The notes below the pieces were generated by a model. The model was not told the origin of the DNA. It ran no database searches and was given only the letters and a program-made list of their open reading frames with translations. A stretch of 32,942 nucleotides of DNA from a virus, in the IMG/VR virus record IMGVR_UViG_3300031673_000291, positions 1 through 32,942 of that record; one strand, given 5' to 3'. Both the position numbers and the translations under genes were made by a program. This document shows, piece after piece, positions 804 to 31,997 of this stretch; the stretch's first letter is position 1; each line of letters starts with the position of its first letter.

Positions 804-2182
804 AACGTTGTAAGTTTCCTTTTATGATTTAATCCAACAAATTCATCCTTACTTAAAAACTTTGTAACAATATGTTCGCAATATTGTTCATCCAGTGAAG
901 ATAACATATCTAAGGATTTGACAACGCTATTAGATTTAGCTTTTTGCTTTCTTGTTATTTTTCCACTATTTAACATCTTTGTTGTGTTTATTATATTTTT
1001 AGTGAATAGCTCAATATTATTACTTTCATAAATCGGGTATATTTTTTTAGCAATATTCTTTAACATATTTTGAACTACAGCAAATTGATCTAACATATAA
1101 AGCATTGAATAGACTTTTACTTCTTCGAAAAATGTTCCTGCTTTATCATCATAAACTTCTTCTATAGGAATGTTTTTAAAATTATATCTATTAGCTAATT
1201 TATTTAATTCACTTCTGTATATATCTACAACTTTCAATTCGTTTTTAAATCTTTTATTTAATACGTGTGATCTTAAATCTATTTTTCTAAATGAAGTTCC
1301 ATCAAACATTTGCATAAATCTGCCAATCATTAATCCTTTAAATAAACCGGATGAATCATATGTTATGTTTAATGTCAAGTTGTGTTTCTTTTGAACATGA
1401 ATTTGAAAGAGCTCATAAAATAAAATATCACGGAAATTAGCCCCGCCCAGAATATGAAAATTAAGATAATTTCTTTTATGTTTTATTGCTTCATTTATTA
1501 ACGGGATCATTGGAACAACATATATTATGCAAGGTATTGCCATGTCACCACTCATATTTGCTACAATACCACCAGTCCCATGATATTTAAATTTAGAAAA
1601 TAAATCATTATCTCTTAATATTTTTGTATAAATATCCCACAATTTGGGTGTGCGGAAATGATGTATATAAATGATTTTATCTCTTACTTCGTCTGGAAGG
1701 GTGCTAGCTGTAAGGTAGGATTTTAAGTTTAGATTATATACGTCTGTAAAGGAATGAAATATTTCGCAGTTTGGTCCTGGTGGGATATCTAATATAAATG
1801 CTCGATCTAATACTTGATGATATTGTTCTAGAAATTCATAATACATCGTTAATAAAAGTTTAGATTCTTTTCTACTTAATCTTCCTACTGATATTTGAAA
1901 ACCACCTGAGTCTGCAATAAAAGTAGAATTATCAAATAGTCTACTTTCTCTGCAAGTTTGAAATAATTTTGCTTCTGACCTATTATATTTAGAATAACTC
2001 TTTTTTCCAGCAAAACTAGATCCATAAGAATGAAGAAAACCAGAACAAGTATTAAGGAAAAAATTTGAAATATCTTCTCTTGAAAAATTATTTTCATACC
2101 TGTTCTTTTTATTCAATATAAAATTATTAACAATTGTGTATAGGGTTTCAATCCCAGCTAAAACATAACCAGATCTTTCCAT
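800..2182 (-). CDS. DpdA-like DNA 7-deazaguanine transglycosylase (TGT superfamily)
   Basis: A 460-residue protein carrying the tRNA-guanine transglycosylase signature ADSGGFQI (DSGGFQ at residues 91-96). An ILDIPPGP segment lies near 130, ILGGANF near 244-250, and TYDSSG at 274-279, where D276 is a candidate for the nucleophile. In the TGT family an aspartate attacks the glycosidic bond and guanine is swapped for a 7-deazaguanine base. Phage members of the family (DpdA) act on DNA rather than tRNA. No TGT zinc site is evident, which also fits DpdA better than bacterial Tgt. The presence of queE in the same block supports a role in DNA modification. An AGAACAAAT motif and an AGGAG ribosome site precede the gene. 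An archaeosine-type tRNA enzyme is the main alternative. Confidence 0.8.
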   Translation of the reverse strand: MERSGYVLAGIETLYTIVNNFILNKKNRYENNFSREDISNFFLNTCSGFLHSYGSSFAGKKSYSKYNRSEAKLFQTCRESRLFDNSTFIADSGGFQISVGRLSRKESKLLLTMYYEFLEQYHQVLDRAFILDIPPGPNCEIFHSFTDVYNLNLKSYLTASTLPDEVRDKIIYIHHFRTPKLWDIYTKILRDNDLFSKFKYHGTGGIVANMSGDMAIPCIIYVVPMIPLINEAIKHKRNYLNFHILGGANFRDILFYELFQIHVQKKHNLTLNITYDSSGLFKGLMIGRFMQMFDGTSFRKIDLRSHVLNKRFKNELKVVDIYRSELNKLANRYNFKNIPIEEVYDDKAGTFFEEVKVYSMLYMLDQFAVVQNMLKNIAKKIYPIYESNNIELFTKNIINTTKMLNSGKITRKQKAKSNSVVKSLDMLSSLDEQYCEHIVTKFLSKDEFVGLNHKRKLTTL

Positions 2183-2251: not shown

Positions 2252-2701
2252 TCATCTTAAGGAGATAATATAGAATCTATCGTCTAAATAATCTTTTAAA
2301 ATAGGCTTTACTTCAGAAATCCATTTTAGTTTTCCATTATAACAACCTGGTCTTGGCAGAATTATTTTTTTCCAATTATTTTCATCAGTAAGTTTTACTA
2401 ATTCAAATGTTGATCTTCTTATTAATTCTAAATCTGCTTTTTCCCACCAGTTATGTTTTACCGGAAATGATATTATTGGGATCGGATTCATTCTTAATAT
2501 TTGAACAATGTTTCCGTTTTTCTTTAATAAATTCCCAAACTCCAAATCGATATTTTTGTATAAATCTTTTGCTTGTTTAGCATTTCCCCTTCCCATTACA
2601 GCACGTCCATTTTTTTTTGAAAACCCATTTGTAGTTACACATAAAGCATCAGCAAAAGAAATAATTTTAGTTGAAAACATATCGCCTGTTAGTTCTTTCA
2701 T
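2252..2701 (-). CDS. Macro-domain protein (ADP-ribose-1''-phosphatase type)
   Basis: A 149-residue protein with the layout of a single macro domain. ADALCVTTNGF near the N-terminus matches the AD(A/V)xxxxTN segment that contacts ADP-ribose. RAVMGRGNAKQAK is the glycine-rich loop, and LPRPGCYNGKL resembles the LPxxGxGxxGL loop. Related phage proteins are annotated as Appr-1''-p processing phosphatases. The likely role is binding or hydrolysis of ADP-ribose derivatives, perhaps recycling NAD-derived metabolites or countering ADP-ribose-based host defence (inference). It overlaps the Ntn hydrolase gene by ATGA. Confidence 0.75.
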   Translation of the reverse strand: MKELTGDMFSTKIISFADALCVTTNGFSKKNGRAVMGRGNAKQAKDLYKNIDLEFGNLLKKNGNIVQILRMNPIPIISFPVKHNWWEKADLELIRRSTFELVKLTDENNWKKIILPRPGCYNGKLKWISEVKPILKDYLDDRFYIISLR

Positions 2702-3225
2702 TCTTCACCCATTAAACATTCAAACTGAATTTCTCCGCCAACTTCTGTACAAAAATAAATAGCAGCTTTTATCGCACTCTTAAGTCTATATATTGGATCC
2801 TTTTCATTTCTTGTATGATATAAAACTGCTAAAGCATAAGGTTCACCACTTCCGATTGAAATGAAATCTTCTGAGTTTTCACCAAGTTGAAAATCTACCA
2901 TTATATAATAACATTTACCTTTGAAACCAATAAGCACCATTGTTTCGCAGCGAGATGCCCCTTGATCATTCATAGTCAAACAACCTTTTTCAATGTATTG
3001 CTCTCTCATAGCATCTGGAAAATCTTCAATATCATCAGGTGGTTTAAAAAAACGTGGTTGCAGAACTTGACCCGCTCTAACACTTCCCGCATATCCAATT
3101 AGATATGGTCCATTTCTAAAAATTTTAGGATCTTTTCTTTGCGCTATATATGTATCAGCAACACCTATAGTATCAGCAGCCATAAAAACATTATCATCTT
3201 GAACTATTGCGCAAATACATGACAT
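2698..3225 (-). CDS. HslV / proteasome-beta-like Ntn hydrolase
   Basis: A 175-residue protein with the pattern of HslV and proteasome beta subunits: an N-terminal strand (CICAIVQDD), AADTIG, the LIGYAGSVRAG segment (compare LAGFAGG in HslV), SIGSGEPYALA (compare AIGSGGNYALS) and a C-terminal helix with AIYFCTEVGG. In HslV the nucleophile is Thr at position 1 after Met removal. Here position 2 is Ser followed by Cys, so any activity would use Ser or Cys, or the protein may be a non-catalytic or self-assembling relative. No HslU-type ATPase is in the window. Its ribosome site, AAAGGAGG, lies inside the end of the thymidylate synthase gene. A prohead-type protease is less likely, as those have a different fold. 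Confidence 0.7.
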   Translation of the reverse strand: MSCICAIVQDDNVFMAADTIGVADTYIAQRKDPKIFRNGPYLIGYAGSVRAGQVLQPRFFKPPDDIEDFPDAMREQYIEKGCLTMNDQGASRCETMVLIGFKGKCYYIMVDFQLGENSEDFISIGSGEPYALAVLYHTRNEKDPIYRLKSAIKAAIYFCTEVGGEIQFECLMGEE

Positions 3226-4344: not shown

Positions 4345-4644
4345 TTATAATGTAACAATTTCTCCATTATATTCTTCATCTTTCAAAATACCATAAAGTT
4401 CTCCGTAGGATAGAACTTTTATAACTCGTCTGTCAAGAACTATATCCTGTCCACCGTTTCTATGAAATAACAAAATATCACCTTCGTTGATTGTTGTAAT
4501 TTCTTCTCCAACAGAAAGAACACGACCGTAAATCTGAGGTTCAACTATTACATTCTCAGGAACAATAATGCCACCCTTAGTTGATTCTTCTTGTTTTAGA
4601 ACTTCTACTATTATTTTGTCGTTTACTGCTTGAACTGTTTTCAT
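4345..4644 (-). CDS. groES: GroES-like co-chaperonin
   Basis: A 99-residue protein of GroES length. It starts with VNDKIIVEVLKQEEST. The mobile loop KGGIIVPENV (about residues 23-32), which contacts GroEL, is well preserved. GRVLSVGEE and INEGDILLFHRNGG match the beta-barrel, and the end VIKVLSYGELYGIL resembles GroES ends. It would cap the host GroEL, probably to help fold phage proteins, as T4 gp31 does, though it is closer in sequence to bacterial GroES than to gp31. The AAGGAG ribosome site lies inside the end of the bS21 gene. Confidence 0.85.
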   Translation of the reverse strand: MKTVQAVNDKIIVEVLKQEESTKGGIIVPENVIVEPQIYGRVLSVGEEITTINEGDILLFHRNGGQDIVLDRRVIKVLSYGELYGILKDEEYNGEIVTL

Positions 4645-4943: not shown

Positions 4944-5609
4944 TTATACAAACCCATACATAATATGAGTTCTTGATGAAAAACCAACTTTATATTTTTC
5001 ACATGCATCAAATACAGCAGGCGCACTTCTAAGTATATCTACTCTGGTTGTACCTTCTGGCATCAAATAAACTCTTTGAGTTGACATTATTGTTTTGTTA
5101 TTACTTAGAAGTCCTAAATAACTATGAATAAAGTCATTATCCTCAAAAACAACTTTGAAATATACATTAGTAAAATTTTGAATCTGTTCTGTAAGTTCAT
5201 ATGCTTCTTTGAGATCTGGAACTGAAAATATTTTTGGGGAATACATAAATTTTATATTACCATTATAATTGACTTGTTTTAACATCTTTTCTAATTGAAA
5301 ACCATTTGTTTCTACATTTGCACTTGGATATTTAAGTTCATTTAATAGAGCAACAGTTTGATTAAAATTTTCTCTAAACGTCGGTTCTCCACCTGTAATT
5401 AAAAGACCAGCATTTTTTTCATTAATTATTTCTTGAATTTCTGATAGTGGATAATTTGCTTCATTAGAAATTCTCATCTTAACTTTTGTATCACACCACA
5501 TACAATTTCTATTACATTTTTTAAATCTCAATATTAACATTGTTTTGCCAATATCAGGACCCTCTCCTTGAAAACTACAAAAGTTTTCAATCAATCTTAC
5601 ACTCTCCAT
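4944..5609 (-). CDS. queE: 7-carboxy-7-deazaguanine synthase (radical SAM)
   Basis: A 221-residue protein with SFQGEGPDIG near the start, the radical-SAM cluster site CNRNCMWCDT (CxxxCxxC, about residues 33-42), LLITGGEPT, ETNGF, and YSPK further on, all typical of QueE. The enzyme converts carboxy-tetrahydropterin to 7-carboxy-7-deazaguanine, the first deazaguanine in the queuosine and phage dG-modification routes. FolE, QueD and QueC are not in this window. With the DpdA-like gene a few kilobases downstream on the same strand it supports DNA 7-deazaguanine modification. A GGAACAAAT motif and AAAAGGAG lie just upstream. Confidence 0.88.
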   Translation of the reverse strand: MESVRLIENFCSFQGEGPDIGKTMLILRFKKCNRNCMWCDTKVKMRISNEANYPLSEIQEIINEKNAGLLITGGEPTFRENFNQTVALLNELKYPSANVETNGFQLEKMLKQVNYNGNIKFMYSPKIFSVPDLKEAYELTEQIQNFTNVYFKVVFEDNDFIHSYLGLLSNNKTIMSTQRVYLMPEGTTRVDILRSAPAVFDACEKYKVGFSSRTHIMYGFV

Positions 5610-8934: not shown

Positions 8935-9795
8935 TTATGTAATATTATCTATATTTTTATTCATACAAATTATATTAGATAAATTTCCAGTTGAACAGGG
9001 TGTTTCTGATCTATGCCCATATTTAATATGGCATTTGTTTTTACTATTTAAACCGCAACAAACTACCCCATTATCTGGATCCAACTCAAACTGCGGATGA
9101 GTTTTTCTTGGGTATTCATGATGAACAACTAACTCTTCTAAATTCTGATTCTCACAATATTGACACTCGTTGTGCTCCAATTCTTCTTTTTGTCTTCTTA
9201 AAACCTCTTCTCGAAATATTTGAAGTTCTCCAGTTGGATTTTCTTCTGTTATAATACCAGCTCTTATCTCATCTTCTTTTATAAGTTGACTTACTTTTTT
9301 GCCATAAACTAAACATGTTTGTTTACAATGTTCTGAACAATAAAAATTAGATCCTTCACTTCCATCGTTGTATTCTAATTGTTTAATTCTTTCATATATT
9401 TGACTTTTAGTTGGAGTAAACCACCCACCTTTTTCTTTTGAGTTAGGACAATTATGATTATGGCAATGAACTTGCCTTTCTCTATTTGAATTATATCTCA
9501 TTTCTTCTACTTGAAAAAATAATGGGTGTTTTTCTTTAATTTGTTCAATTGTAAAAATCTTTGCTTTTGAATGTTTTTCTTTTGTTTCTTGTCGATTATG
9601 AGATTCTTTTGCTACTTTTATTCGGTTCTTTCTTATTTCTGGGTTTTTCCATAATTCTTTTTGCATTGTTGATAAATTCTTTTTAATTGTAGGACATGAT
9701 TGCCAATTTTCTTCACAACACCATTTAGTCATTCCTTTCTTTGGAGGAAATTTAGCCTCCTTACCACAACCATAACCACATAACTTTATAAACAT
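8935..9795 (-). CDS. HNH endonuclease with N-terminal zinc module
   Basis: A 286-residue protein. The N-terminus, CGYGCGKEAKF then WCCEENWQSCP, is a module shared by five genes in this window. Next come a NUMOD-like stretch (NPEIRKNRIKVAKESHNR, FTIEQIKEKHP), a second cysteine/histidine block (GGWFTPTKSQ) nearly identical to that of the 16983-17819 gene, and a C-terminal HNH domain (CQYC, VVHHEYPRKTHP, CCGLNSKNKCHIKYGH). It is likely a free-standing homing endonuclease. It has its own GGGAGG site and an AGAACAAAT motif and sits beside the polymerase gene, a common position for such elements. Confidence 0.8.
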   Translation of the reverse strand: MFIKLCGYGCGKEAKFPPKKGMTKWCCEENWQSCPTIKKNLSTMQKELWKNPEIRKNRIKVAKESHNRQETKEKHSKAKIFTIEQIKEKHPLFFQVEEMRYNSNRERQVHCHNHNCPNSKEKGGWFTPTKSQIYERIKQLEYNDGSEGSNFYCSEHCKQTCLVYGKKVSQLIKEDEIRAGIITEENPTGELQIFREEVLRRQKEELEHNECQYCENQNLEELVVHHEYPRKTHPQFELDPDNGVVCCGLNSKNKCHIKYGHRSETPCSTGNLSNIICMNKNIDNIT

Positions 9796-12937: not shown

Positions 12938-13203
12938 TTTAATTTCTCCTTTCTCCACGGCCATTTTATTGGTTCTTTTCCTACTCCTTGTTTATTCCAA
13001 TTATATACTCCATACCCATTAAATATTGTCAAGACAAACATTTGACCTGTAATCCAATATTGACCCAATAAACTAAAATAAAACATCGCTAAAATCTGAC
13101 CAGCACATAAAATCCAAAAACCTTCAACTCTATGTAATGCAACAATACCAACCCCAACACAAGCCATAATAGCAACTATAATTTCTAAAATATCCATTGA
13201 CAT
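12934..13203 (-). CDS. Small membrane protein, PnuC-like half transporter
   Basis: An 89-residue protein with three hydrophobic segments (about residues 3-22, 28-46 and 50-66) and a basic C-terminal tail. The stretch from GFWILCAGQ through YWITGQM to NGYGVYNW resembles the repeat unit of PnuC nicotinamide-riboside carriers, which end helices with N(x)YGxYxW. PnuC has about twice as many helices, so this would need to dimerise, as SemiSWEET proteins do. The start may be the ATG at 13203 or at 13197. Transport of an NAD precursor is an inference, of interest because a macro-domain gene is also present. Confidence 0.55.
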   Translation of the reverse strand: MSMDILEIIVAIMACVGVGIVALHRVEGFWILCAGQILAMFYFSLLGQYWITGQMFVLTIFNGYGVYNWNKQGVGKEPIKWPWRKEKLK

Positions 13204-13679
13204 CTACCTTCAAAAAGTATGTATTTTTTATCATATTTCCACAAATCACTTTGCGAAGGATATACATTTTGTAATAGTTCTTCTTTTTCTTTTGGATTTT
13301 TAACTTCATGAATGTATGGAGCTTGCATATTAACGCTATAAAAAATTACGTTGAAACCCAGTCTTGCAATGGATTCACCAATAACTCCCCATTTCCTGTG
13401 ATCAGGATGGATTTCGTAAATTGGGTCTGGAAAATATAATGCTACAGTATTTGGATTTAACAAATGGGTGGGAACAGAATCTAAGAAAAGTTGAGCTTTA
13501 ACATCTACAAATTCTTTTAACTTCATTGCTTCTAGTCTTCTCTCTTGATCTGCATCTCCTGAATAAATTACTATTGTCTTATGTTTTTTAAGAATTTCAA
13601 AACATCCTATAATTTCGTCATCGGGATGTGGAGCAACAATTATATAATTTGCTGCCGGATTCTCTTTCTTTATTTTCAT
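13185..13679 (-). CDS. PIG-L / LmbE-family deacetylase
   Basis: A 164-residue protein with the family's zinc-binding signature APHPDDEIIG (residues 16-25) and a second metal motif, IHPDHRKWG (about 107-115). Family members remove N-acetyl groups from sugars such as GlcNAc-phosphatidylinositol or GlcNAc-containing cofactors. It is shorter than most (about 220-300 residues), like other phage copies. It shares a transcript with a glycosyltransferase, so both may act in one sugar pathway. AGGAGAAG precedes the ATG, and an AGAACAAAT motif lies just upstream. Confidence 0.75.
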   Translation of the reverse strand: MKIKKENPAANYIIVAPHPDDEIIGCFEILKKHKTIVIYSGDADQERRLEAMKLKEFVDVKAQLFLDSVPTHLLNPNTVALYFPDPIYEIHPDHRKWGVIGESIARLGFNVIFYSVNMQAPYIHEVKNPKEKEELLQNVYPSQSDLWKYDKKYILFEGRCQWIF

Positions 13680-13714: not shown

Positions 13715-15250
13715 TTATGGAGTTTTATTTTCTTCTTCTTCGTCGTCCTCAACTTCTTCTGCTAATGTTGGAACAACTAACTCATGTAGTTCACCTTCAT
13801 TTTTTGTTACTAGATGAATTGGACGTCCCCATAAGTTATAAATATGATTCATTGTCTCAAGTGCATATGTTACATCTAATTCTGCATTGTCATATTTATG
13901 ATCTAATAACATTTCACCACTACCTAAGTGATTCCCATCGGTCACTTCTATTCTTGGTATTCCACTATTAGAAAAATAATTTACAATTTCTTGCCTAATT
14001 TCTTCTGCTTCATGTTTAGTTCTTATATAATCTGTATGTTGGGTTTCTTCTTTTTCAGTGTATAGATATATGTTTAATTTGTCCACTAACTCAGCTGTCA
14101 AAAAATCATGCATAAAAAACCAGTCTGTATAGATAGACATTATATCAACAATTTTTTCCCAACCTTTCATACTTCCATCGTCCCACTTATCTTGATCTTT
14201 CGAATAAACACAAGATTCCCAATCTTTACCATGTCTTCCTTTATTCCATCGTTCTTCAATATCTCTCCATATTCCTGATCCAAGTAAATATGGGTTTAAC
14301 CCGATTGGCCACTCAGATTTTACTAGTGAGTTTGAATAACCAAAATGAGAATATTCTTTTGATGTCAATAAATTTTCTTCATATAATTGTTTGCATATTT
14401 TTTCATGAACAACTACAGCAAACCCTTCATTCATATATTTTGTATGAATTATTGGCCAGTAGTATTGACCCTCTATCCTCAAAATTTCTAATATATCTCT
14501 TTGCCAATCTTCAAGAATTCTGGAGTTATTGATAATATATTTTAATAAATCTTCTGTTGGTTCTACAGGTGTTCGTAATTTTAATTTTCTAAATAATTTT
14601 TGATTGAATAATTCTATATCTCCTTTTATATTATCTAATTTATTACTTGATATTACATCACTAAAATAAGATTTATTTTTTAGATGCATTTTTTTCTTTT
14701 CTTGTTCAAAAACTCTTCTTCTAGTTTCTTCTTCTGTTTCTTCATTAGCAAATGGACTTGAATGTCTTTGTATTGCATGTCCAGCATCTACAATCATTTC
14801 AACTTCGTCTATTCCATATTTTCTCTCATATTCATTTACTCGCTTTGAAGCTTCTAACATAACCTCTATTATATCTTGTCTTGATTTACGAAACAACTTA
14901 TTCATTGTAAAAAATGTTGCATGACCTACGACATGTGACATTACTAACACTTGTACTCCAAAAGTATTACTATTCATAAGATATGCACGTGCAGGATCAG
15001 AATTTATAACAACTTCATATGGTAAATGAGCTCCTAGATTTTCATATATTGTTCTTTGTCTTTCATAGTTTCTACCATATTTCCAGTTTGAAACATTTGT
15101 CGGTATGTTGTATGCCATAATCTCAAACATCTTTTGAGGTGGTACAATATCAAATTCAATCGGATAAAAATCTAGATTCATCTCTTCTTTAGCAATCTGA
15201 TACATTCTATTTTCTATTTTTATTAATCTTTTAAGCTCAGATTTAGTCAT
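13715..15250 (-). CDS. spoVR: SpoVR family protein
   Basis: A 511-residue protein, the normal length for SpoVR/YcgB (about 510). Family features include the start LIKIENRMYQIAKEEMNLDFYPIEFDIV, MAYNIPTNVSNWKYGRNYE, VINSDPARAYLMNSN, MSHVVGHATFF and DAGHAIQRHSSPF. SpoVR affects spore cortex formation in Bacillus. Its E. coli homologue YcgB is co-regulated with yeaGH in stationary phase. The biochemical activity is not known. It lies one base after the yeaH-like gene, in the usual functional grouping with PrkA. The C-terminus is acidic. Confidence 0.9.
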   Translation of the reverse strand: MTKSELKRLIKIENRMYQIAKEEMNLDFYPIEFDIVPPQKMFEIMAYNIPTNVSNWKYGRNYERQRTIYENLGAHLPYEVVINSDPARAYLMNSNTFGVQVLVMSHVVGHATFFTMNKLFRKSRQDIIEVMLEASKRVNEYERKYGIDEVEMIVDAGHAIQRHSSPFANEETEEETRRRVFEQEKKKMHLKNKSYFSDVISSNKLDNIKGDIELFNQKLFRKLKLRTPVEPTEDLLKYIINNSRILEDWQRDILEILRIEGQYYWPIIHTKYMNEGFAVVVHEKICKQLYEENLLTSKEYSHFGYSNSLVKSEWPIGLNPYLLGSGIWRDIEERWNKGRHGKDWESCVYSKDQDKWDDGSMKGWEKIVDIMSIYTDWFFMHDFLTAELVDKLNIYLYTEKEETQHTDYIRTKHEAEEIRQEIVNYFSNSGIPRIEVTDGNHLGSGEMLLDHKYDNAELDVTYALETMNHIYNLWGRPIHLVTKNEGELHELVVPTLAEEVEDDEEEENKTP

Positions 15251-15251
15251 A

Positions 15252-16577
15252 TTATTTCTCCTCTTTAAACAAAATATGTTTTAAGGTAGGATGAATATGC
15301 TCTTTTCCTTTAATTACAGATGTTAAAAAATGTTTATCTTTATTAATACAAAACTCAGTACCAGCTTCTTTTTTACACTCGAATTTCCAATGCTCTTTAA
15401 TTGATTTTATTAAGGTATTCATTGTTCCCCAAAATCCAGCATAAGCACTTCCACCAGAAGTATCAATTTCATTATAAGATAACATATTGATTTTCTTGTT
15501 TAACATTTCTTCAATATATCGAATTGTCTTCTTTTCATCAAAATCTTCTCCATCAGAAGTATATACACAATATACGTTCCATTCTTTAACTGGATATTCA
15601 GTATCAATCAAATAGTTTGCTTTTTCAAAAGCTGTCCAACAGGAAGTTCCACCACTTTCTCCTTTATGAAAAAAGGTTTCTTCATCTACTAATTTTGCTT
15701 CCGTCGTATGAACAATAAACTTAATTTCAACATGATCATAAACTTTTTTAAGAAACTCAACTAACCAAAATAATAAAGATCTACATAAATATTTTTTATC
15801 GGTTGTCATTGATCCTGAAGTATCCATCATAGCAATAACTACAGCGTTTGAATGTATTTCAACATCTTCTTCAATTTGCTTAAATCTTAAATCTTCATCT
15901 TCTATCCATACATACGGTTCAATTCTTTGATCAAGTTTTTCATCAACAATTATTTTGATTGCATCATTTATATCATTTTTACTTTGAGTTAAAGCCTTTC
16001 TTGCATCATCTTCAGAACAGTTTGTTTCTTCTACTATTTCTCTAATAAAGCCAGCTTCTCTTTTTAAAGCTTCTAGCATAGTTCGTTTCTTATGCACACG
16101 AGGTAATATTCCAGTTTTAGAAACCGACTCAAATTTCCATCCTTTTGGCACTAATTGATGAGCTCTTGTTTTTTCTTCAATCCACGGTAACCCTAAATCC
16201 TCGAACATAATTTGAATGAGATAATCAATATCAACTTCAACTTCAATATAATCTTCACCTAATTCATCTCCAGCTTTACCACCTTCTCCTGGTTTGGGTC
16301 TTCTTCCAATAACGTCGCCAGGTTTTGTATCTCCTTGGCCAGCACCAGCTTCATCCCCTTCCCCTTTTTTTGGTTTGCCATGTTTAAACCTATAATCTTT
16401 TAATCCTTTTACTGGGATTCTAACTTTTTTACCCCTTTTCTTTGTAATAATAGATTCTTCAGAGATTACGTCTCTTACATTCTTTCTAATAGCTTCATCT
16501 ATCTTTTCTTGGTGTCTCTCTGCGTCTTTCTTTCCACGTTCAGACAAATCCCAATCTGGATGATCTACAATAGTCAT
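15252..16577 (-). CDS. yeaH: YeaH/YhbH-family von Willebrand A protein with UBA-like insert
   Basis: A 441-residue protein of the DUF444 (YeaH/YhbH) family. The N-terminal region contains a basic segment and a Gly/Glu-rich linker (about 68-110). The von Willebrand A domain carries the metal site MMDTSGSM (DxSxS, 252-256) and GESGGTSCW further on, where E. coli YeaH has ETGGT. Between them, about 174-216, lies a segment (EIVEETNCSEDDARKAL, then NDINDAIKIIV) with the pattern of a UBA/EF-Ts-like three-helix domain. E. coli YeaH has a different helical stretch here. YeaH works with the kinase YeaG/PrkA and YcgB/SpoVR in stress responses. Confidence 0.88.
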   Translation of the reverse strand: MTIVDHPDWDLSERGKKDAERHQEKIDEAIRKNVRDVISEESIITKKRGKKVRIPVKGLKDYRFKHGKPKKGEGDEAGAGQGDTKPGDVIGRRPKPGEGGKAGDELGEDYIEVEVDIDYLIQIMFEDLGLPWIEEKTRAHQLVPKGWKFESVSKTGILPRVHKKRTMLEALKREAGFIREIVEETNCSEDDARKALTQSKNDINDAIKIIVDEKLDQRIEPYVWIEDEDLRFKQIEEDVEIHSNAVVIAMMDTSGSMTTDKKYLCRSLLFWLVEFLKKVYDHVEIKFIVHTTEAKLVDEETFFHKGESGGTSCWTAFEKANYLIDTEYPVKEWNVYCVYTSDGEDFDEKKTIRYIEEMLNKKINMLSYNEIDTSGGSAYAGFWGTMNTLIKSIKEHWKFECKKEAGTEFCINKDKHFLTSVIKGKEHIHPTLKHILFKEEK

Positions 16578-16585
16578 TTGACCTC

Positions 16586-16801
16586 CTAGTAATCTATACT
16601 TATTACATTTAAATTTTGGTCATAATGTACACGCCACTCTTTATAACAAGTATTACATAACATAGATTGAACATATAATTTTGAAGAAACAAAAACTCCA
16701 CCATTATCTTCTATATCAAGAGAATAACAATACGGACATATATCTGGATCAAGTTCAAGAGGTATTTCTTTTTTCTTTTTTCTAATAATATCTTCGAACA
16801 T
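16586..16801 (-). CDS. Small zinc-ribbon protein
   Basis: A 71-residue protein starting MFEDIIRKKKKE with CPYC (about residues 25-28) and CNTC near residue 52. It is a clear paralogue of the next gene upstream, which starts MFEDIIGKSTKKK and has CPYC and CAIC. The ATG at 16801 is two bases after that gene's stop, so translation is probably coupled. A longer frame upstream of this ATG would overlap the neighbour and is not favoured. Function is unknown. It may be a protein- or nucleic-acid-binding ribbon. Confidence 0.72.
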   Translation of the reverse strand: MFEDIIRKKKKEIPLELDPDICPYCYSLDIEDNGGVFVSSKLYVQSMLCNTCYKEWRVHYDQNLNVISIDY

Positions 16802-16803
16802 TA

Positions 16804-16983
16804 TTATTCTACCAACCAAGAAGATCCGCAGATAGCACAGAACATTGCTGTTCCACGACCAGTTGAATCTACTATAGTCGTTCCAATTTTTTCTGAACCA
16901 CAATATGGACAAAACTCTATGTTTTCAAATACTTCTAGTTTATCTTTCTTTTTAGTTGATTTTCCTATTATATCTTCAAACAT
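16804..16983 (-). CDS. Small zinc-ribbon protein (59 residues)
   Basis: A 59-residue protein read from ATG at 16983 to TAA. It starts MFEDIIGKSTKKKDK, with CPYCGSEKIG and CAICGSSW, a four-cysteine ribbon. GGAGAG lies seven bases before the ATG, and the ATG overlaps the stop of the upstream HNH gene (TAATG). It is paralogous to the following gene, so the pair looks like a tandem duplication. The pair lies inside the prkA-yeaH-spoVR block. Confidence 0.75.
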   Translation of the reverse strand: MFEDIIGKSTKKKDKLEVFENIEFCPYCGSEKIGTTIVDSTGRGTAMFCAICGSSWLVE

Positions 16984-17819
16984 TATTTACTCTCCATTTC
17001 TATTTGAATTAAAAGTTCTTCTAAAGTTATTGAAGAGTTTTTATTTTTTTTTGAATTTTCTAATTCTGGTATACATTCTAAGTTTTTATAATGAGCAATT
17101 ATTTTTGGATCTACATTATTTGTAAAACCATCATAAATAGAATATTTATGATCTAATGCATAACCATGTTCTTTACCTTGTAGTTCTATGTTTTCAATTG
17201 TATCAAAATATTTTTTGCGTGTTCTATATGTTCGTTTCTGTACTTGATCAAGATATCTTTGATATTCTTTTAACAGGAAAGGATCTGATTTAAAATAGTA
17301 CAAACAACACTCATGTTTACATTCTTTTGAACAATATAAATAACCTCCATCATTTCCGTCTTCTTTTTCTAAAGCGTCTTTTCTTCTTGAAAATTGACTT
17401 TTTGTTGGAGTAAACCAACCACCATTTTCTTCAGAATTTTTACATTCATTATATTTACAATGAAATTGTATATCTCCATTTGGTCCATATCTCATTTTTT
17501 CTTCTTTAGCAAAAATTGGATATTTATTTTGAATTTGTTCAATTGTAAAAGTGTTTGATTTTACTCGTTTTTCTTTTACTTCTGGTCGATTCATTGCTTC
17601 TTTTATTGATTTTATGTGTTTTGTTTTTACTTCTGGTTTATTTATAGCTTCTTTTACTGCTTTTTTATGTTTCTTTTTTACTTCTGGCTGGTTTAAAGAT
17701 TCTAAATTTTTCTCTCTATTTACAGGACATTTATTATGACTTTTTTCACAACACCACTTTCCATTCTTAAATGAATATTTAGCTTCTTTGCCGCAACCAT
17801 AATCACATAACCTATTCAT
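16983..17819 (-). CDS. HNH-type endonuclease with shared zinc module and NUMOD-like repeats
   Basis: A 278-residue protein. N-terminal module CDYGCGKEAKYSFKNGKWCC; then three near-identical repeats based on PEVKxKHxKxxKEAxN (about residues 46-95), like NUMOD3 DNA-binding repeats; FTIEQIQNKYP; the GGWFTPTKSQ block shared with the 8935-9795 gene; and a C-terminal segment ALDHKYSIYDGFTNNVDP...NLECIPELEN typical of His-Me-finger phage endonucleases. It is inserted between prkA and the zinc-ribbon genes, splitting the kinase triad, as expected of a homing gene. No AGAACAAAT motif is seen before it. Confidence 0.78.
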   Translation of the reverse strand: MNRLCDYGCGKEAKYSFKNGKWCCEKSHNKCPVNREKNLESLNQPEVKKKHKKAVKEAINKPEVKTKHIKSIKEAMNRPEVKEKRVKSNTFTIEQIQNKYPIFAKEEKMRYGPNGDIQFHCKYNECKNSEENGGWFTPTKSQFSRRKDALEKEDGNDGGYLYCSKECKHECCLYYFKSDPFLLKEYQRYLDQVQKRTYRTRKKYFDTIENIELQGKEHGYALDHKYSIYDGFTNNVDPKIIAHYKNLECIPELENSKKNKNSSITLEELLIQIEMESK

Positions 17820-17820
17820 T

Positions 17821-19770
17821 TTATTCCTCTTTTCTTAAAACTTCCCCTATAAATTTCAATAAAACATTTGCGCATTCTTTACAATAACCTTTTTCTAAAA
17901 GATTTTTCAATGCTGATTCACGTCTCTTTTTTGCTTTTGGATTTGTGGTACTTGTATCAGCTAAGGAAAGTGAAACTACTGATTTCAAATCTGCCATAAG
18001 TTTCTTCTCTATTCCCTCTCGAAGAGGATCATAATCCTTATAAGTAAATTTTTGTCCTTTTTCAAGAGCTGCACTCTTATGTACAAAAATACTATTTCTA
18101 AATTCCTTCTTTGAATTTTCTGGAATACCTACAAGGTCCTCTATTGAACGCATTAGTTTTTCGTCAGGATCACTATATTCACCAGTAATTGAATCGAATA
18201 CTTTTTCTTTCTTACAAAAAGAAGATACATTAATCATATAGTTTTCAAATAGTGTTGTTGCTTGATCTTCATAAGCATATAGAAAAGCCATATTTACTTC
18301 TTTTTTCGCAATTTCTTTATATTCGGAAGCTACAGAATTTTTATCTCCTTGTAGAAGATTCAAATAAGTCTCTTTCTCTTCTTCAGTAATACCAATATGA
18401 TGATTAAAATTATCTCTTAAAGCTCTAATAATATCAATCGCATTTATACATTTTTTCTCTTCTTTCGATCCAAGAGTTACGTTCATTGCATTGATTATAA
18501 ACCTTGGAGATATACCTTTCATTCCTTCATTTTTTTCTTTTCCTTCTTGTCTGAGACCCTTTATATCTATTTCACTTTTCTTGAAAGCATCAGTTATTTC
18601 ACCATTATATAACTTCATTTTTTCTAGTTTACTAGTTACTGATGTTGATTCTTCTAACCTACTTAAAACGGCAAATTGAGCAGCTACCTTTAAAGTATTT
18701 GGCGCTATATGGATATCTCTAAAATCAGATTCTCTAATCATCTTTTTATAAATATTAATTTCATCATCTACTCGAACATTTAAAGGCACCATAATAGGAT
18801 ACATTCGATCATGTAAAGCTTCGTTCTTTTTGTCAGCTTTGAATATATCAAATTCTGTTTGATTTGTATGGGCCACTATTAATGTATCAATATATATTTG
18901 AGGAAAACCAGGTGACTTTATTAGTTGTTCTTGAGCTAGTGAAATAAGAACATATTGTAATTTAATATCTGTTTTTAATAACTCAATCATTTCTATCATA
19001 CCACCATTAGCAACCTGCAATTCTCCATCAAATTGAAAGGCTCTTGGATCAGATTCTCCCCATCTAGAAACTTTTGACATATTTATTTTTCCAATGAGTT
19101 CTGTAACATCCTGAGATTTTGGATCACTTGGTTGAAATGTTCCGATACCAACTCTTCTTTGTTCTGAAAAATAAATTTCTTTTACAGGAATATTCTCCCA
19201 ATTAACCACACCTTTAGTAGTATAGTCTTTATCTACTAATGATTGACATACTGGACAAAGAACTCCCTCTATTTTTACATTTAACTCTTTTTCCCAATAT
19301 GGTCTATCTAATAATGGAATTAAATGTAAAGGCTCTTCATGCAGTGGACATCCATCAATTACATATTTTGACAATTTATCACGTTCTAAACCTCTCTTTA
19401 AAAGAGCAGAAATTGTTGACTTACCACTACTTACTGGACCTACAAGAATCAAAATCCTTTTTCCTGTTTCTGTCCTTCTAGCTGCTGCTTTCAAAAATCT
19501 CATAATATCATGAAGCGATTCTTTAGTTCCATAAATTTTATCATCAAAGAAATTATATGTTATTAGATCCTCATAACCTCTTAGTTTAAATTCATCTTCT
19601 ACTTCACCAACCCCATGATTCATAATCATATTATAAACTCTTCCGGGTGCAAAATTACAAACCAATGGATTATCTTTAACTAGATGAAGATATTCAAGCA
19701 TCGTTCCTTTCCAGTCTTCTATCTCACGACCTTCTTTTTGAGCAGCGATTGCTTTTGTGAATTCATCCAT
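17821..19770 (-). CDS. prkA: PrkA / YeaG serine protein kinase
   Basis: A 649-residue protein, matching the family length (about 640). An N-terminal AAA+ domain has the Walker A motif GPVSSGKST (111-119), and CPLHEEPLHLIP is the conserved CPxHEEPL segment. A CPVC pair and RVGIGTFQPSDPKSQD follow. The C-terminal third corresponds to the kinase-like domain of PrkA. YeaG/PrkA phosphorylates Ser/Thr in stress, nitrogen starvation and sporulation responses. AAAGGAGG precedes the ATG, and an AGAACAAAT motif lies about 50 bases upstream, making it the first gene of the triad transcript. Confidence 0.92.
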   Translation of the reverse strand: MDEFTKAIAAQKEGREIEDWKGTMLEYLHLVKDNPLVCNFAPGRVYNMIMNHGVGEVEDEFKLRGYEDLITYNFFDDKIYGTKESLHDIMRFLKAAARRTETGKRILILVGPVSSGKSTISALLKRGLERDKLSKYVIDGCPLHEEPLHLIPLLDRPYWEKELNVKIEGVLCPVCQSLVDKDYTTKGVVNWENIPVKEIYFSEQRRVGIGTFQPSDPKSQDVTELIGKINMSKVSRWGESDPRAFQFDGELQVANGGMIEMIELLKTDIKLQYVLISLAQEQLIKSPGFPQIYIDTLIVAHTNQTEFDIFKADKKNEALHDRMYPIMVPLNVRVDDEINIYKKMIRESDFRDIHIAPNTLKVAAQFAVLSRLEESTSVTSKLEKMKLYNGEITDAFKKSEIDIKGLRQEGKEKNEGMKGISPRFIINAMNVTLGSKEEKKCINAIDIIRALRDNFNHHIGITEEEKETYLNLLQGDKNSVASEYKEIAKKEVNMAFLYAYEDQATTLFENYMINVSSFCKKEKVFDSITGEYSDPDEKLMRSIEDLVGIPENSKKEFRNSIFVHKSAALEKGQKFTYKDYDPLREGIEKKLMADLKSVVSLSLADTSTTNPKAKKRRESALKNLLEKGYCKECANVLLKFIGEVLRKEE

Positions 19771-20475: not shown

Positions 20476-21644
20476 AATAAATTTGGATTCGGTAGTGTAA
20501 AAATGGGAAATGTAAGAGCCCGCAATTAACTGGGTTATGTTAATAACTACTTATGGTAGTCGACTTGAAAATCGACTTTGTGGCGAGTAGCCAAAATATA
20601 AAGTTTCAAGAATCAAGTTATTAAGTTTAACACGATCCCCCGCGTGGATAAATGATTGGGGTTTTAAAGTCTCAAGATATGAAGGCTCAAGATATGACAC
20701 TTCAGTGTGTGGAAAAATCCAGACTTAAGTGGTGTTTTCTCTTAGACAACTCAACCACTTCTGGCTGCTATTTGGATCCAAAAAATAAATGCAAAGCAAT
20801 CTTAGGGATGCCAAGCAACCCGAATGAGATAGTTTTATAAGTTTAAAAATCAGGGTTTGTCGTTTTGTGCCTGTACGGGGTAAACGACTTTTCAAACAAG
20901 CACCTGCTATCCCCGGCGCCGGTAGGTGGTGGCTGACTTGTGAGAGAATAAAATAGAATGGGATCAGCAAATTCGCTGGTCAAAACGATCACTATTCGTG
21001 GTATTGCGCATACCAAAATAGAAGACGGTAGGCTGTGAGCCGGCCCCCATTGTAGGGCCCGATCGAAGTTTTACTTCTCCAGAATCCGTCCCCTGATTTT
21101 TAATTAGCTGCTTAGCATGGGGTCAATTGAACCGTGTCGTGAGGTCGACCTGATGAGGGTTGGGCCTCGGCAGCTGGATTAAAATCAGCCGCTTAAATAT
21201 TGGCCCTCTTTAGAGTTGCCCATGTTCGTGGGGTTGGCACATGCGTGTTGAATCCCGGCGGCTGAATTAATTTCCAGTAGCGATATAGCGATAATATATC
21301 TGCGTTCAAATCCTTGACGCAATAAGTCCTTAGTAGTGGAGACATGAAAGGGCGGGAGCGACTCCGGATTGCTTTGTCAATTTAAATTGTATAAAGGTGC
21401 TAATTATAGGATTTATCGTGTCGGTGAGAATCCGGCCTACTGGTTTTAAAATTTAGTAGCGATATAACGGGAAAATAATATATTTGAGCAGCCTTGAGCT
21501 GTCTTCCTTACTTACACTGTTATTCCGTATTTGGGTGGAGCGATAAGCTTTGAAGCCTGAACAATCGGTAGTGTGTAAACCGTGTCTGGTGAAAAACCGG
21601 CCTACTAAATTTTAAAAATTTAATAACGATATAACAAGGAAAAA
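20468..21644 (+). ncRNA. Candidate giant structured non-coding RNA (GOLLD/ROOL-like by context)
   Basis: About 1.18 kb with no credible gene and clearly more G+C than its AT-rich surroundings. Many stable hairpins can be read: AGTCGA/TCGACT (20558), GTCGTTT/AAACGAC (20859), CACCT..CCGGcgCCGG..AGGTG (about 20902), GATCAGC/GCTGGTC (about 20962), GGTAT/ATACC (about 21000), GACGG/CCGTC (21025/21086) enclosing GGCCC/GGGCC and GAAG/CTTC, GCTGGAT/ATCAGC (about 21173), TGCGT/ACGCA (21301), GGAG/CTCC and CAGC/GCTG (about 21489). A hairpin module recurs five times in the 3' half. Location just before a tRNA cluster in a phage is the usual setting of GOLLD and ROOL RNAs, but I cannot match a consensus. 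The 5' and 3' ends are estimates. Confidence 0.6.
21092..21640 (+). repeat. Five-fold recurring hairpin module in the giant RNA
   Basis: Copies near 21093, 21173, 21260, 21438 and 21603. Each is an AT-rich hairpin closed by CTG/CAG, CTACT/AGTAG or similar, followed by a GCTTA or GCGATATA(A/G)CG tail. The last three share CCGGC before the hairpin and CGATATA after it, and the final two are near-identical (CCGGCCTACT, then CGATATAAC). The spacing is about 80, 87, 178 and 165 bases, suggesting built-in periodicity. The divergence of the loops argues that structure rather than sequence is conserved. Confidence 0.6.
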
Positions 21645-21851
21645 ATGAAAAATATATTTTGTAATAATGCGACAGAAACAATGACAGTGAAAGAGTTGAT
21701 TGATCTTTTAAAAAATTTCCCTGACGATATGGCTGTTGTAGCTACATGGGAAGGACAGGTTAAGGAGATTGATCCTTTAAAGTTTCGTGTTGTGTCAGAA
21801 TATCTTTCCCCGTTAATTGAGCCTGTCCTCGAAATTGACGTTGAATATTAA
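21645..21851 (+). CDS. Hypothetical protein
   Basis: A 68-residue protein. Its core MTVKELIDLLKNFPDDMAVVATWEG is a pattern seen in many small phage proteins of unknown function (a short helix, then PxDxxVV and a strand). AAGGA lies six bases before the ATG. The gene begins at the very end of the last RNA module, so its translation could be affected by that structure. A second in-frame ATG at the MTVKEL position is a possible alternative start. Confidence 0.6.
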   Translation: MKNIFCNNATETMTVKELIDLLKNFPDDMAVVATWEGQVKEIDPLKFRVVSEYLSPLIEPVLEIDVEY

Positions 21852-21885
21852 AAGTAGAATTTGAAAACAAAGGCGTTTAATTATT

Positions 21886-21894
21886 AGAACAAAT
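21886..21894 (+). promoter_or_regulatory. AGAACAAAT motif upstream of the tRNA region
   Basis: Exact motif preceded by TTATT and followed by TTAAAATC, about 40 bases before a GGGAGG ribosome site. It could start the transcript that enters the tRNA cluster, although a terminator-like hairpin lies at 22018-22049. Confidence 0.4.
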
Positions 21895-21926
21895 TTAAAA
21901 TCATATTATACTGGGAGGTAAATGCA

Positions 21927-22016
21927 ATGTTTATACAAATATTGTTTTTATTAAAAACCAGTATACTTCCTACGCAATCTCTACAAGAACAACTCAGTAC
22001 ACCCAAACAGAAGTAA
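21927..22016 (+). CDS. Possible 29-residue peptide
   Basis: A short frame starting MFIQILFLLKTSILP after GGGAGG with suitable spacing, with a hydrophobic N-terminus and a polar tail. An alternative ATG five bases earlier gives only ten codons. It is followed at once by a terminator-like hairpin. Evidence is limited to the ribosome site, so it could be a leader or not a gene. Confidence 0.3.
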   Translation: MFIQILFLLKTSILPTQSLQEQLSTPKQK

Positions 22017-22017
22017 T

Positions 22018-22049
22018 AGCACTTCTTTAAAATAAAATTAAAGAGTGCT
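22018..22049 (+). terminator. Terminator-like hairpin before the tRNA cluster
   Basis: AGCACTTCTTTAA pairs with TTAAAGAGTGCT across a short A-rich loop (12 pairs with one bulged T), followed by TTAAAAG. The T-tract is short, so termination may be partial, or the hairpin could mark an RNA-processing site before the first tRNA. Confidence 0.5.
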
Positions 22050-22099
22050 TTAAAAGTATGATGAAATTGTTACATTATTTTTTTCGTAAGAAAAATAGT

Positions 22100-25285: not shown

Positions 25286-25936
25286 ATGGATCTTTGTAAT
25301 TTCGGTTGTGGAAACCAAGCTTCTTATGTTTTTAAAAATGGAAAGAATTGTTGTTCAGAATTTGTAGTACAATGTCCAGAAGTCAGAAGGAAAAATTCTT
25401 TAAAAATCAAAGGTAAACAATATTGTTATAAATCAAAAGTAACATATTTAAATAAAAATTATAAATATTATTGTATATATTGTGGAAAACCTTTAATAAA
25501 TAAGTTTAATAAAAATGTACATGAAATTGTATGTTCAATGAATCCAAAAAATGTAAAATTTTGTTATTGTGGAAATATTATTCTTAATAAAACAAGCAGA
25601 ACATGTTCTTACTATTGTTCTAATAAAATATTTAAAAATCAAAAAAAGAAAAAAGACTTGAGTATAGATAAACATAGAGATATTGCTTTTCGGTATCATA
25701 GAAAACAATGTATTATTTGTAATGAAAAAAATATTGTAGAAGTACATCATTATGACAATAATCACTATAATAATAATCCGATTAATTTTATACCTTTATG
25801 TCCAACACATCATAAATATGTACATAGTAAATATAAAATTTTAATACAAGATAAAATTAATATATACTACAAAAACTTTAAAAGGATTTTTGATCACTGG
25901 ATAAGACATAATAGTAATTTTATTGTTGAAGACTAA
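25286..25936 (+). CDS. HNH endonuclease with N-terminal zinc module
   Basis: A 216-residue protein. N-terminal module CNFGCGNQASYVFKNGKNCC (residues 4-23); then zinc pairs CIYCGK, CYCGN and CSYYC; and a C-terminal classical HNH domain CIICNEKNIVEVHHYDNN with INFIPLCPTHHKYVH. The middle and HNH parts closely parallel the 31380-31997 gene. Probably a free-standing homing endonuclease placed between tRNA genes, with its own upstream motif. Confidence 0.85.
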   Translation: MDLCNFGCGNQASYVFKNGKNCCSEFVVQCPEVRRKNSLKIKGKQYCYKSKVTYLNKNYKYYCIYCGKPLINKFNKNVHEIVCSMNPKNVKFCYCGNIILNKTSRTCSYYCSNKIFKNQKKKKDLSIDKHRDIAFRYHRKQCIICNEKNIVEVHHYDNNHYNNNPINFIPLCPTHHKYVHSKYKILIQDKINIYYKNFKRIFDHWIRHNSNFIVED

Positions 25937-27841: not shown

Positions 27842-27919
27842 TGGTCAGTAGCTTAGTCTGGTCTAAAGCCGAGGTCTCTAAAACCTTGATCGTGGGTTCG
27901 AATCCCATCTGGCCAACCA
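27842..27919 (+). tRNA. Amber-suppressor tRNA (anticodon CTA)
   Basis: Acceptor TGGTCAG pairs with CTGGCCA, D-stem GCTT/AAGC, anticodon stem GAGGT/ACCTT, loop CTCTAAA with U33, anticodon CTA, four-base variable region, T-arm GTGGG/CCCAT, A73 and CCA. CTA reads UAG. The loop differs by one base from that of tRNA-Trp (CTCCAAA), and U1-A72 occurs in Gln tRNAs, so the amino acid is uncertain. Confidence 0.88.
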
Positions 27920-28491: not shown

Positions 28492-29448
28492 ATGGATATG
28501 GAATTATGTCATTATGGGTGTGGACAAAAAGCAAAATTTATTTTCAAAAATGGAAAATTATGTTGTTCAAAAAATCATAAACAATGTCCAAATAAAAAAG
28601 AATCTAAACATGATTATAAAAATGATAAATCACACAAAAAAGTAAATTGTAAATACTGTAATAAAGAATTCTTTTATTCAAATTTAAAACAACATGAATC
28701 ATCATGCTATTTAAAACCAGAAAACATAAGAACCTGTTTAAATTGCAGAAAAATATTAAATGGCCGCGATCAAAAAAAATATTGTTCAAAAAAATGCTTT
28801 GCTTCCCATACACATACAACAAAAAAGAAAAAACAATCAAAAGAGACTAAAAGAAAAATTAGTACAAGTGTTAAAAATATTTCACCAACTAGATCAGATG
28901 CATTAAAAAAACCAGTTATGATAGAGATTAAATGCCCAATTTGTGGTAATATTAAAAAAATTAAAACAACAGCACCTGGTTCATTTAGTAAAACAAAATC
29001 TTGTTCTAAAAAATGTTTAAGTAAACTTTTATCGAAAAAATCAATAGAAAGTGGTTGTGGTGGTTATCGAGAAGGTTCTGGTCGTAGTAAAAGTGGTTAT
29101 TACAAAGGAGTGTATTGTGGTAGTAGTTATGAATTAATATTTTTAGTATATCATTTGAATATAGGGTCAAATATTAAAAGATGTAAATTAAAAATACCGT
29201 ATACATATAACGGGCAAAATCATCATTATTATCCTGATTTTGAAATAGATAATATTATATATGAAATAAAAGGGTTTTATAATAAAATTGTAGATATTAA
29301 AACTAATGCAGTAATTAATGCAGGTTATAAAATAGAAGTTTTATATTTAAAAGATCTTCAACCAATGTTAGACTGTATTAAAAATAAATTTAAAATAAAA
29401 AATATAATAAAACTATATGAACAAAAAACGCTTCTGTCTTCTAGTTAG
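28492..29448 (+). CDS. PD-(D/E)XK-type endonuclease with shared zinc module
   Basis: A 318-residue protein. N-terminal module CHYGCGQKAKFIFKNGKLCC (6-25); zinc pairs CKYCNKEF, CLNCRK, CSKKC and CPICGN; a NUMOD3-like stretch (KETKRKISTSVKN); then a C-terminal domain with SYELIFLVYHL, YYPDFEIDNIIYEIKGFYNK, a PD-(D/E)xK nuclease core (PDF...EIK) instead of HNH. The last codons and the TAG stop lie inside the following tRNA-Glu gene. Likely a homing-type endonuclease. Confidence 0.8.
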   Translation: MDMELCHYGCGQKAKFIFKNGKLCCSKNHKQCPNKKESKHDYKNDKSHKKVNCKYCNKEFFYSNLKQHESSCYLKPENIRTCLNCRKILNGRDQKKYCSKKCFASHTHTTKKKKQSKETKRKISTSVKNISPTRSDALKKPVMIEIKCPICGNIKKIKTTAPGSFSKTKSCSKKCLSKLLSKKSIESGCGGYREGSGRSKSGYYKGVYCGSSYELIFLVYHLNIGSNIKRCKLKIPYTYNGQNHHYYPDFEIDNIIYEIKGFYNKIVDIKTNAVINAGYKIEVLYLKDLQPMLDCIKNKFKIKNIIKLYEQKTLLSSS

Positions 29449-31379: not shown

Positions 31380-31997
31380 ATGTTATGTTCATATGGTTGT
31401 GGTAAAGAAGCAAAATATCAATTTAAGAATGGGAAGTGGTGTTGTTCTTCTCATTCTGCATCATGTCCTGAAATTCGTTTAAAAAATTCTAGAAGGAATA
31501 CTGGCGATAGAAAAAATAGATACAAAGTTTCTATTGAAAACAAAAAAGAAAGTAGCTGTAAATTTTGTAATAAAATAATATATACACCTGGATTAAAACC
31601 TCATGAAAAATTTTGTTATTTAAATCCAAAAAATAAAAAAGAATGTCCTGTATGTGGAAAGCCAATTAAAAAATATAGGATAAATAAAACATGTTCTGCA
31701 AAATGCGGAGTATTAATATCAAAAAATGAAAGTTGTGCAGAAAAAAATTCAGGAAACTCTTTACAATATAGATTAATATGTTTTAAATATCATGGTAAAA
31801 AATGTTTGATATGTAAAGAAGAATTAATAGTTCAAGCTCATCATTTAGATGGTAATAGAGCAAACAACATTCCAGAAAATCTTATTCCTGTATGTCCAAC
31901 ACATCATGCATATTGTCATCATAAAAAATATTGGTATATCATAAAAGAATATATTGAAAAATATATTGAAAAATTTAAAAACGAAAGGATGTATTAG
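31380..31997 (+). CDS. HNH endonuclease with N-terminal zinc module
   Basis: A 205-residue protein. Module CSYGCGKEAKYQFKNGKWCC (3-22); finger CKFCNK; CPVCGKPIKKYRINKTCSAKC; and a classical HNH end: CLICKEELIVQAHHLDGN with NLIPVCPTHHAYCHHKK. Close to the 25286-25936 gene in layout and HNH sequence. It stops at TAG, two bases before the next ATG. Probably a homing endonuclease. Confidence 0.85.
   Translation: MLCSYGCGKEAKYQFKNGKWCCSSHSASCPEIRLKNSRRNTGDRKNRYKVSIENKKESSCKFCNKIIYTPGLKPHEKFCYLNPKNKKECPVCGKPIKKYRINKTCSAKCGVLISKNESCAEKNSGNSLQYRLICFKYHGKKCLICKEELIVQAHHLDGNRANNIPENLIPVCPTHHAYCHHKKYWYIIKEYIEKYIEKFKNERMY

Follow-up and report, generated by a model that had tools for sequence, protein, structure and literature searches.

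The PrkA-YeaH-SpoVR locus

We analyzed a 32,942-base IMG/VR virus record (IMGVR_UViG_3300031673_000291; about 30% GC; hereafter 'the window'), a fragment of a phage genome that carries, on its minus strand, genes for a PrkA-family AAA+ protein, a YeaH protein and a SpoVR protein (hereafter 'the triad'). The genes form a nearly gapless row in the order PrkA, HNH-like gene, zinc-ribbon-like open reading frame (ORF), YeaH and SpoVR, followed by PIG-L-like and PnuC-like ORFs (Table 1). A first-pass annotation of the window, made from its sequence, had claimed a complete phage-borne triad with its key motifs intact, and our results agree: all three genes are full length, their Pfam matches likewise span the full length and exceed the cut-off by a wide margin, and alignments show that the PrkA Walker A motif, the YeaH metal site and the invariant residues of SpoVR are retained. 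The annotation left out the HNH-like gene and the zinc-ribbon-like ORF, both of which lie between PrkA and YeaH.

Table 1. Triad genes, their motifs and adjacent ORFs in the window (AF2, AlphaFold2; pLDDT, predicted local distance difference test; UBA, ubiquitin-associated)
Feature	Position	Strand	Evidence and remarks
PrkA-family AAA+ protein, 649 aa	17821..19770	-	first triad gene; Pfam AAA_PrkA 9.7e-109, PrkA C-terminal 1.8e-71
PrkA Walker A (GPVSSGKS; GPVSSGKST)	19417..19440	-	G110, P111, K116, S117 invariant in 18 aligned sequences
HNH/homing-type gene	16983..17819	-	between PrkA and YeaH; PHROG matches of unknown function; pieces resemble other window HNH genes
108-aa ORF, zinc-ribbon-like CPYC...CNTC pattern	16586..16912	-	between PrkA and YeaH; similar ORF in same place in L014
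YeaH/DUF444, von Willebrand A protein, 441 aa	15252..16577	-	Pfam DUF444 7.4e-94
UBA-like three-helix insert of YeaH	15945..16091	-	directly before von Willebrand A domain; Pfam matches and AF2 helices
SpoVR family protein, 511 aa	13715..15250	-	Pfam SpoVR 8.2e-96, SpoVR_C 9.9e-11; AF2 model pLDDT 83
SpoVR HxxxH motif (HVVGH)	14921..14935	-	H105 and H109 invariant in 17 sequences
SpoVR EGxAxxxH motif	14405..14428	-	E274, G275, H281 invariant; intein site in L086, L092
PIG-L-like ORF	13185..13679	-	downstream of SpoVR, same strand; Pfam PIG-L 2.1e-5, below cut-off; window-specific neighbor

The PrkA protein has the AAA_PrkA and PrkA C-terminal domains and the Walker A motif of its family, matches a solved relative (9xip; E 1.3e-122), and has IMG/VR relatives at 63-75% identity. 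The first-pass annotation had called the set a stress-kinase triad, a label that is doubtful for PrkA: the purified Bacillus anthracis protein had negligible kinase and protease activity and oligomerized with ATP (PMC13001217). The YeaH protein has a DUF444 domain with the metal ion-dependent adhesion site (MIDAS) of a von Willebrand A (VWA) domain (DxSxS, T, D), the residues of which (D251, S253, S255, T310 and D341, with the first Met left out of the numbering) vary little or not at all in the alignment. A Foldseek search with its AF2 model gave matches to VWA domains (best E 2.7e-6), and the MIDAS domain of human Midasin is among the structural matches. The UBA-like insert is supported by helices in the AF2 model and by Pfam matches of UBA type in six members, all of these matches falling short of the curated cut-off; among the aligned YeaH proteins it occurs only in the phage clade described below and in two cellular sisters of that clade (L097 and L098), and it is missing from the other bacterial and phage YeaH proteins compared.

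The SpoVR protein has the SpoVR and SpoVR_C domains and retains the family's invariant residues H105, H109, E150, D154, E274 and H281. Its AF2 model is helical. A Foldseek search with this model gave no significant match; in a VIA comparison, the first-ranked match was a putative lipoprotein (3o0y; Z 13.1), and matches 2 to 20 were M1/M2/M32/M49/M61-type proteins or their relatives (gluzincin-type). The invariant HxxxH and EGxA...H residues suggest that SpoVR holds a metal site. The HExxH catalytic motif is absent, the Glu position of HxxxH being occupied by V or C in the 17 aligned sequences, and we therefore do not claim SpoVR as a peptidase.

Gene order and late-promoter motifs in related T4-like phages

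In a scan of IMG/VR with a PrkA alignment, relatives of PrkA were detected in at least 544 viral contigs, the best 80 of which were kept; in total, 86 contigs, a sample chosen by PrkA and including the window, were analyzed. The order PrkA-YeaH-SpoVR is kept in nearly all sufficiently long contigs. The gene for the small terminase subunit (TerS) lies directly before PrkA in 71/86 contigs, the gene for the large terminase subunit (TerL), detected with a profile built from intein-free TerL, follows SpoVR in 59/86, and the full order TerS-PrkA-YeaH-SpoVR-TerL is present in 54/86. Upstream lie T4-like genes for the major capsid protein (MCP; gp23), scaffold and portal (gp20), and downstream lie genes for a head-tail adaptor and a tail-sheath stabilizer; in the reference T4-like phage C48C1, terS and terL are adjacent. 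As a control for the PrkA-chosen sample, the analysis was repeated with TerL as anchor, some contigs being common to both samples. SpoVR lies just upstream of TerL in 63 of 67 informative contigs, and the triad is complete in 37 of the 40 contigs that extend upstream of TerL by 6 kb or more. The gene set itself is already known in phages, by annotation, in Thermus phages and some huge phages; its conserved late-gene setting appears to be new, in that a literature search, which did not extend to the phiYS40 papers, found no paper treating the phage triad as a unit or noting its terminase setting.

A bacterial contig or a prophage-host junction, either of which would have undone the claim of a phage-borne triad, was rejected for the clade: close relatives of the window carry the triad among T4-like head genes. 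Encoding beside scaffold, MCP and TerL would also fit proteins that enter the virion together with the head and do their work once a new infection begins; we regard such virion-carried effectors as very improbable, an AAA+ ring being a large cargo.

The T4-type late-promoter motif TATAAATA, which has a background rate of 3%, is found, mostly at 25-50 bases upstream, before TerS in 29/54 cases (p 5.5e-30), before TerL in 25/43, before scaffold in 16/34 and before portal in 11/24. The motif was found before PrkA in 0/60 cases, before YeaH in 0/60 and before SpoVR in 0/58. The median distance from the TerS stop to the PrkA ATG is 15.5 bp, and no terminator-like site was found between TerS and PrkA. 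Because the motif precedes TerS but never the triad genes, the gap is short and no terminator-like site intervenes, the late transcript of terS probably extends through the triad, as a motif-based prediction. Activity of the triad during infection, which the first-pass annotation had suggested, is to this extent plausible in the relatives, where a late transcription unit is predicted to include the triad.

The annotation had also suggested control of host dormancy, and this part is not supported. According to this explanation, the phage triad replaces or boosts the host system, keeping a starved or stressed host alive or setting dormancy during infection. The response of the cellular operons to starvation, (p)ppGpp, osmotic stress and sporulation (PMC3188799, PMC13001217) speaks for it, whereas the absence of a clear stress phenotype in a Rhizobium etli prkA mutant (PMC3188799) speaks against it. 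Viral spoVR is common in low-oxygen viromes and has been reported as an abundant 'sporulation' auxiliary metabolic gene (AMG) in an oxygen minimum zone, so that the dormancy idea is already published (PMC8940887), and several separate placements of the triad in phages suggest general usefulness; however, neither the window nor its relatives show any sign of a link to sporulation, and no sporulation or stress regulators were seen traveling with the triad. The fixed place between terS and terL, together with the predicted late promoter, argues for a late phage function, and late infection is an odd time to set dormancy. We consider host-state control unlikely.

Origin, inheritance and surroundings of the triad

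The phylogeny against bacterial copies that the annotation had called for gives concordant trees for PrkA, YeaH and SpoVR. Each has one phage clade, with the window nested among the T4-like terS-terL phages and with L097 (Desulfobacteraceae) and L098 (Fibrobacterota) as cellular sisters. The L097 and L098 loci have ordinary bacterial surroundings and the gene order PrkA-YeaH-SpoVR; the possibility that the nearest cellular matches (L097, L098 and L168) are hidden phage contigs was rejected, their flanks being FtsH, glycosyltransferase and ornithine carbamoyltransferase genes. Because the three trees agree and the UBA-like insert is common to the phage clade and its sisters, we conclude from these comparisons that the operon entered the clade as a whole, once; of the two directions, transfer from cell to phage is the simpler. 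The PrkA tree groups the window with L002 (support 95), and this group is sister to L007/L015 (support 99), the PrkA genes of which sit in the head cassette. The window copy was therefore probably relocated out of the head cassette, and L070 is a second case of a relocated triad.

The three genes evolve under purifying selection, with dN/dS between close pairs at 0.02-0.14, as is also the case for TerL and MCP. PrkA distances correlate with TerL distances (Mantel r 0.73, n 48, 0/999 permutations), and the triad is co-inherited with TerL down to 52% TerL identity. These results bear on the explanation that the triad is cargo, a moron in a tolerated late-gene gap with a late role unrelated to heads, for example in protein quality control or in guarding the cell osmotically until lysis. 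In many members, mobile genes of the HNH and CapR types have indeed settled in the same region, and in the window, in L002/L014 and in L070 the operon has left it as an intact unit; against cargo stand the near-fixation of the triad in TerL-anchored loci (37/40), its co-inheritance with TerL, and a second lineage, Thermus phage Lalka8, in which a triad with another gene order also lies between portal and TerL. The location of the triad by DnaB and ribonucleotide reductase (RNR) genes in L092/L096 is again in favor of cargo. On balance, we consider this explanation quite unlikely.

In-frame inteins occur in all three genes: in PrkA between DPK and S (L015, L016, L083) and after ELLK (L020), in YeaH within the MIDAS loop between GE and SGGT (L002), and in SpoVR inside NEGxAxxxH, between A and xxxH, in two distant lineages (L086; L092/L093). 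Since inteins usually settle in conserved working sites, we infer that these positions mark working sites of PrkA, YeaH and SpoVR. Large inserts also occur in TerL genes (L021, L022, L051, L083 and L086), with several apiece in L051 and L083; some keep the reading frame, including an L021 intein at Walker A, whereas others break it.

Co-occurrence of the three families, proposed by the annotation as a check, is borne out in the IMG/VR T4-like relatives, in Thermus phages and in huge phages. The bacterial prkA-yhbH/yeaH-spoVR operon (R. etli, Bacillus, E. coli yeaG-yeaH with ycgB) has the same three families, in many bacteria in the order found in the T4-like clade; in contrast, the phage copies form their own clade, lie mostly among head and terminase genes, and have the YeaH insert otherwise found only in the sister cells. 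Outside the phage clade fall Thermus phages, LR756511, L092/L096 and proteobacterial-type huge phages. The Thermus isolates phiYS40, TMA, phiLo, MN1 and Lalka8 have all three genes (annotated as serine kinase, SpoVR, and conserved or vWA protein) but, unlike the clade, have the order YeaH-SpoVR-PrkA, a PrkA identity of 30-35% and a separate place in the tree. The Lalka8 locus reads portal-minor head-YeaH-SpoVR-PrkA-two small ORFs-TerL, and the phiYS40 triad is three genes from TerL. The lytic Ralstonia jumbo phage RsoM2USA has PrkA and SpoVR (PMC8504454), which, unlike those of the clade, lie far from TerL (22-27 kb vs 163 kb). Four huge metagenomic phages have matches to PrkA, YeaH and SpoVR; because the PrkA proteins of LR756502/745206/756504 are 62-65% identical to E. 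coli YeaG, the huge-phage triad is, by sequence, a separate, proteobacterial-type capture. YeaG and YeaH of Enterobacter phage LAU1 were rejected as phage genes, since they lie at the record edge, YeaG is 97.7% identical to that of E. coli, and the DNA is probably from the host. A 176-kb phage (L095:7494-13228) has YeaH-SpoVR-PrkA followed by a 430-aa ORF with a GroEL PHROG match (7.8e-17) and no Pfam match. In the window's closest relatives, a Clp-type AAA+ gene lies downstream of SpoVR (L014:17203-19064; L002:19886-21937), as two ORFs in L014 and with a Hint/intein domain in L002.

The window itself encodes a family-B DNA polymerase (PolB), a thymidylate-synthase-like protein, Cpn10 (GroES; 4345-4644, minus strand), an HslV-like protein of proteasome fold (2698-3225, minus strand), several HNH proteins and 14 tRNAs. 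The PIG-L-like ORF is probably co-transcribed with the triad. HNH/endonuclease-like genes at 8935-9795, 16983-17819, 25286-25936, 28492-29448 and 31380-31997 form a family whose products begin with a similar cysteine-rich stretch (CxYGCGxxAxxxFKNGKxCC-like); its members are dispersed, some between genes and some within the tRNA array. Within this array, a tRNA with a CUA anticodon (27842-27919, plus strand) was called Pyl by ARAGORN. TAG recoding, an idea raised by this tRNA, is not supported: TAG serves as stop in 4/32 window ORFs, and reading it as Gln gave only minor extensions. An Rfam search of the window found no RNAs besides the 14 tRNAs, including in a region of about 1.5 kb with elevated GC (20500-22050; up to 0.38) that is without a convincing ORF. 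A 460-aa ORF (800-2182, minus strand) has a DSGGFQ motif like that of tRNA-guanine transglycosylase/DpdA proteins and no Pfam match, and a QueE-like radical SAM gene (4944-5609, minus strand) lies near it; together they suggest a possible 7-deazaguanine modification of the DNA.

A proposed late protein-remodeling role

We favor, with a probability of about 0.5, the reading that the triad is a late-infection gene set with a protein-remodeling job, captured once and kept between terminase genes. An ATP-driven remodeling machine is favored because PrkA is an AAA+ protein, YeaH has a MIDAS VWA domain, SpoVR has putative metal-site residues, and proteostasis genes are neighbors: Clp-type AAA in L002/L014, Cpn10 and HslV-like genes in the window, and FtsH beside L097. 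An AAA+ ATPase is likewise paired with a MIDAS/VWA protein in MoxR-type systems, for example RavA-ViaA; PrkA differs from these in belonging to another AAA+ family, in its own C-terminal domain, and in having SpoVR as a third partner.

According to the remodeling hypothesis, an ancestor of the large T4-like clade would have captured one operon, once, from a relative of the Fibrobacterota/Desulfobacteraceae carriers; the operon would have come to lie between the genes for the two terminase subunits and would have been retained there as a near-core late gene set, and the window's phage would hold a descendant copy moved elsewhere in the genome. PrkA would most likely form an AAA+ ring that uses ATP to remodel proteins. 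YeaH would be its VWA/MIDAS adaptor, in which the added UBA-like domain would contact the substrate, and SpoVR would be a partner that binds metal and has a helical core resembling that of metallopeptidases. The HNH/homing-type gene between PrkA and YeaH is a mobile element, outside the machine. In most of the clade, the promoter before terS would drive late synthesis of the triad, the targets of which would be structural or packaging proteins of the phage, or else host proteins that get in the way of assembly. The idea that head or packaging proteins are acted on comes from position, including that in Lalka8, where the order differs and the triad still lies between portal/head genes and TerL. 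More specifically, and only tentatively, a stress/sporulation operon may have turned into a late morphogenesis module, in which PrkA, VWA-UBA YeaH and SpoVR are expressed with TerS and remodel or mature head or packaging proteins.

Several observations weigh against the remodeling hypothesis. Operon position alone is no proof of a role in assembly. L197 (7843-10539) has TerS, a 205-aa ORF and TerL with no triad between, so that the triad is not strictly essential in a phage of this type, which provides a natural comparison genome for the clade. The triad is far from TerL in phiLo and MN1, and in the divergent phages L092/L096 it is away from head genes. The TerS assignment is by position and weak, repeated profile matches (10/15 members to phrog_445, best 1.5e-6), with an hhalign probability of only 18.5% for a TerS candidate against known TerS. 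The window, as a 32.9-kb fragment, has no head genes; its triad is flanked by the PIG-L/PnuC-like ORFs and the tRNA array, rather than by TerS and TerL, and TATAAATA was not found before its PrkA gene. Since the window has neither head genes nor this motif before PrkA, the prediction of late expression covers the relatives and not the window's phage.

PrkA, YeaH and SpoVR are conserved across bacteria, and their biochemistry is unsettled after decades. The phage clade provides a fresh, testable setting for the triad, in late infection and head assembly, and the inteins and the UBA-like insert point to working sites for mutants. The terminase setting calls into question the counting of viral spoVR as a sporulation AMG. 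If the morphogenesis-module reading is true, it would hint that the cellular PrkA-YeaH-SpoVR set is a general protein-remodeling machine, and not a kinase cascade.

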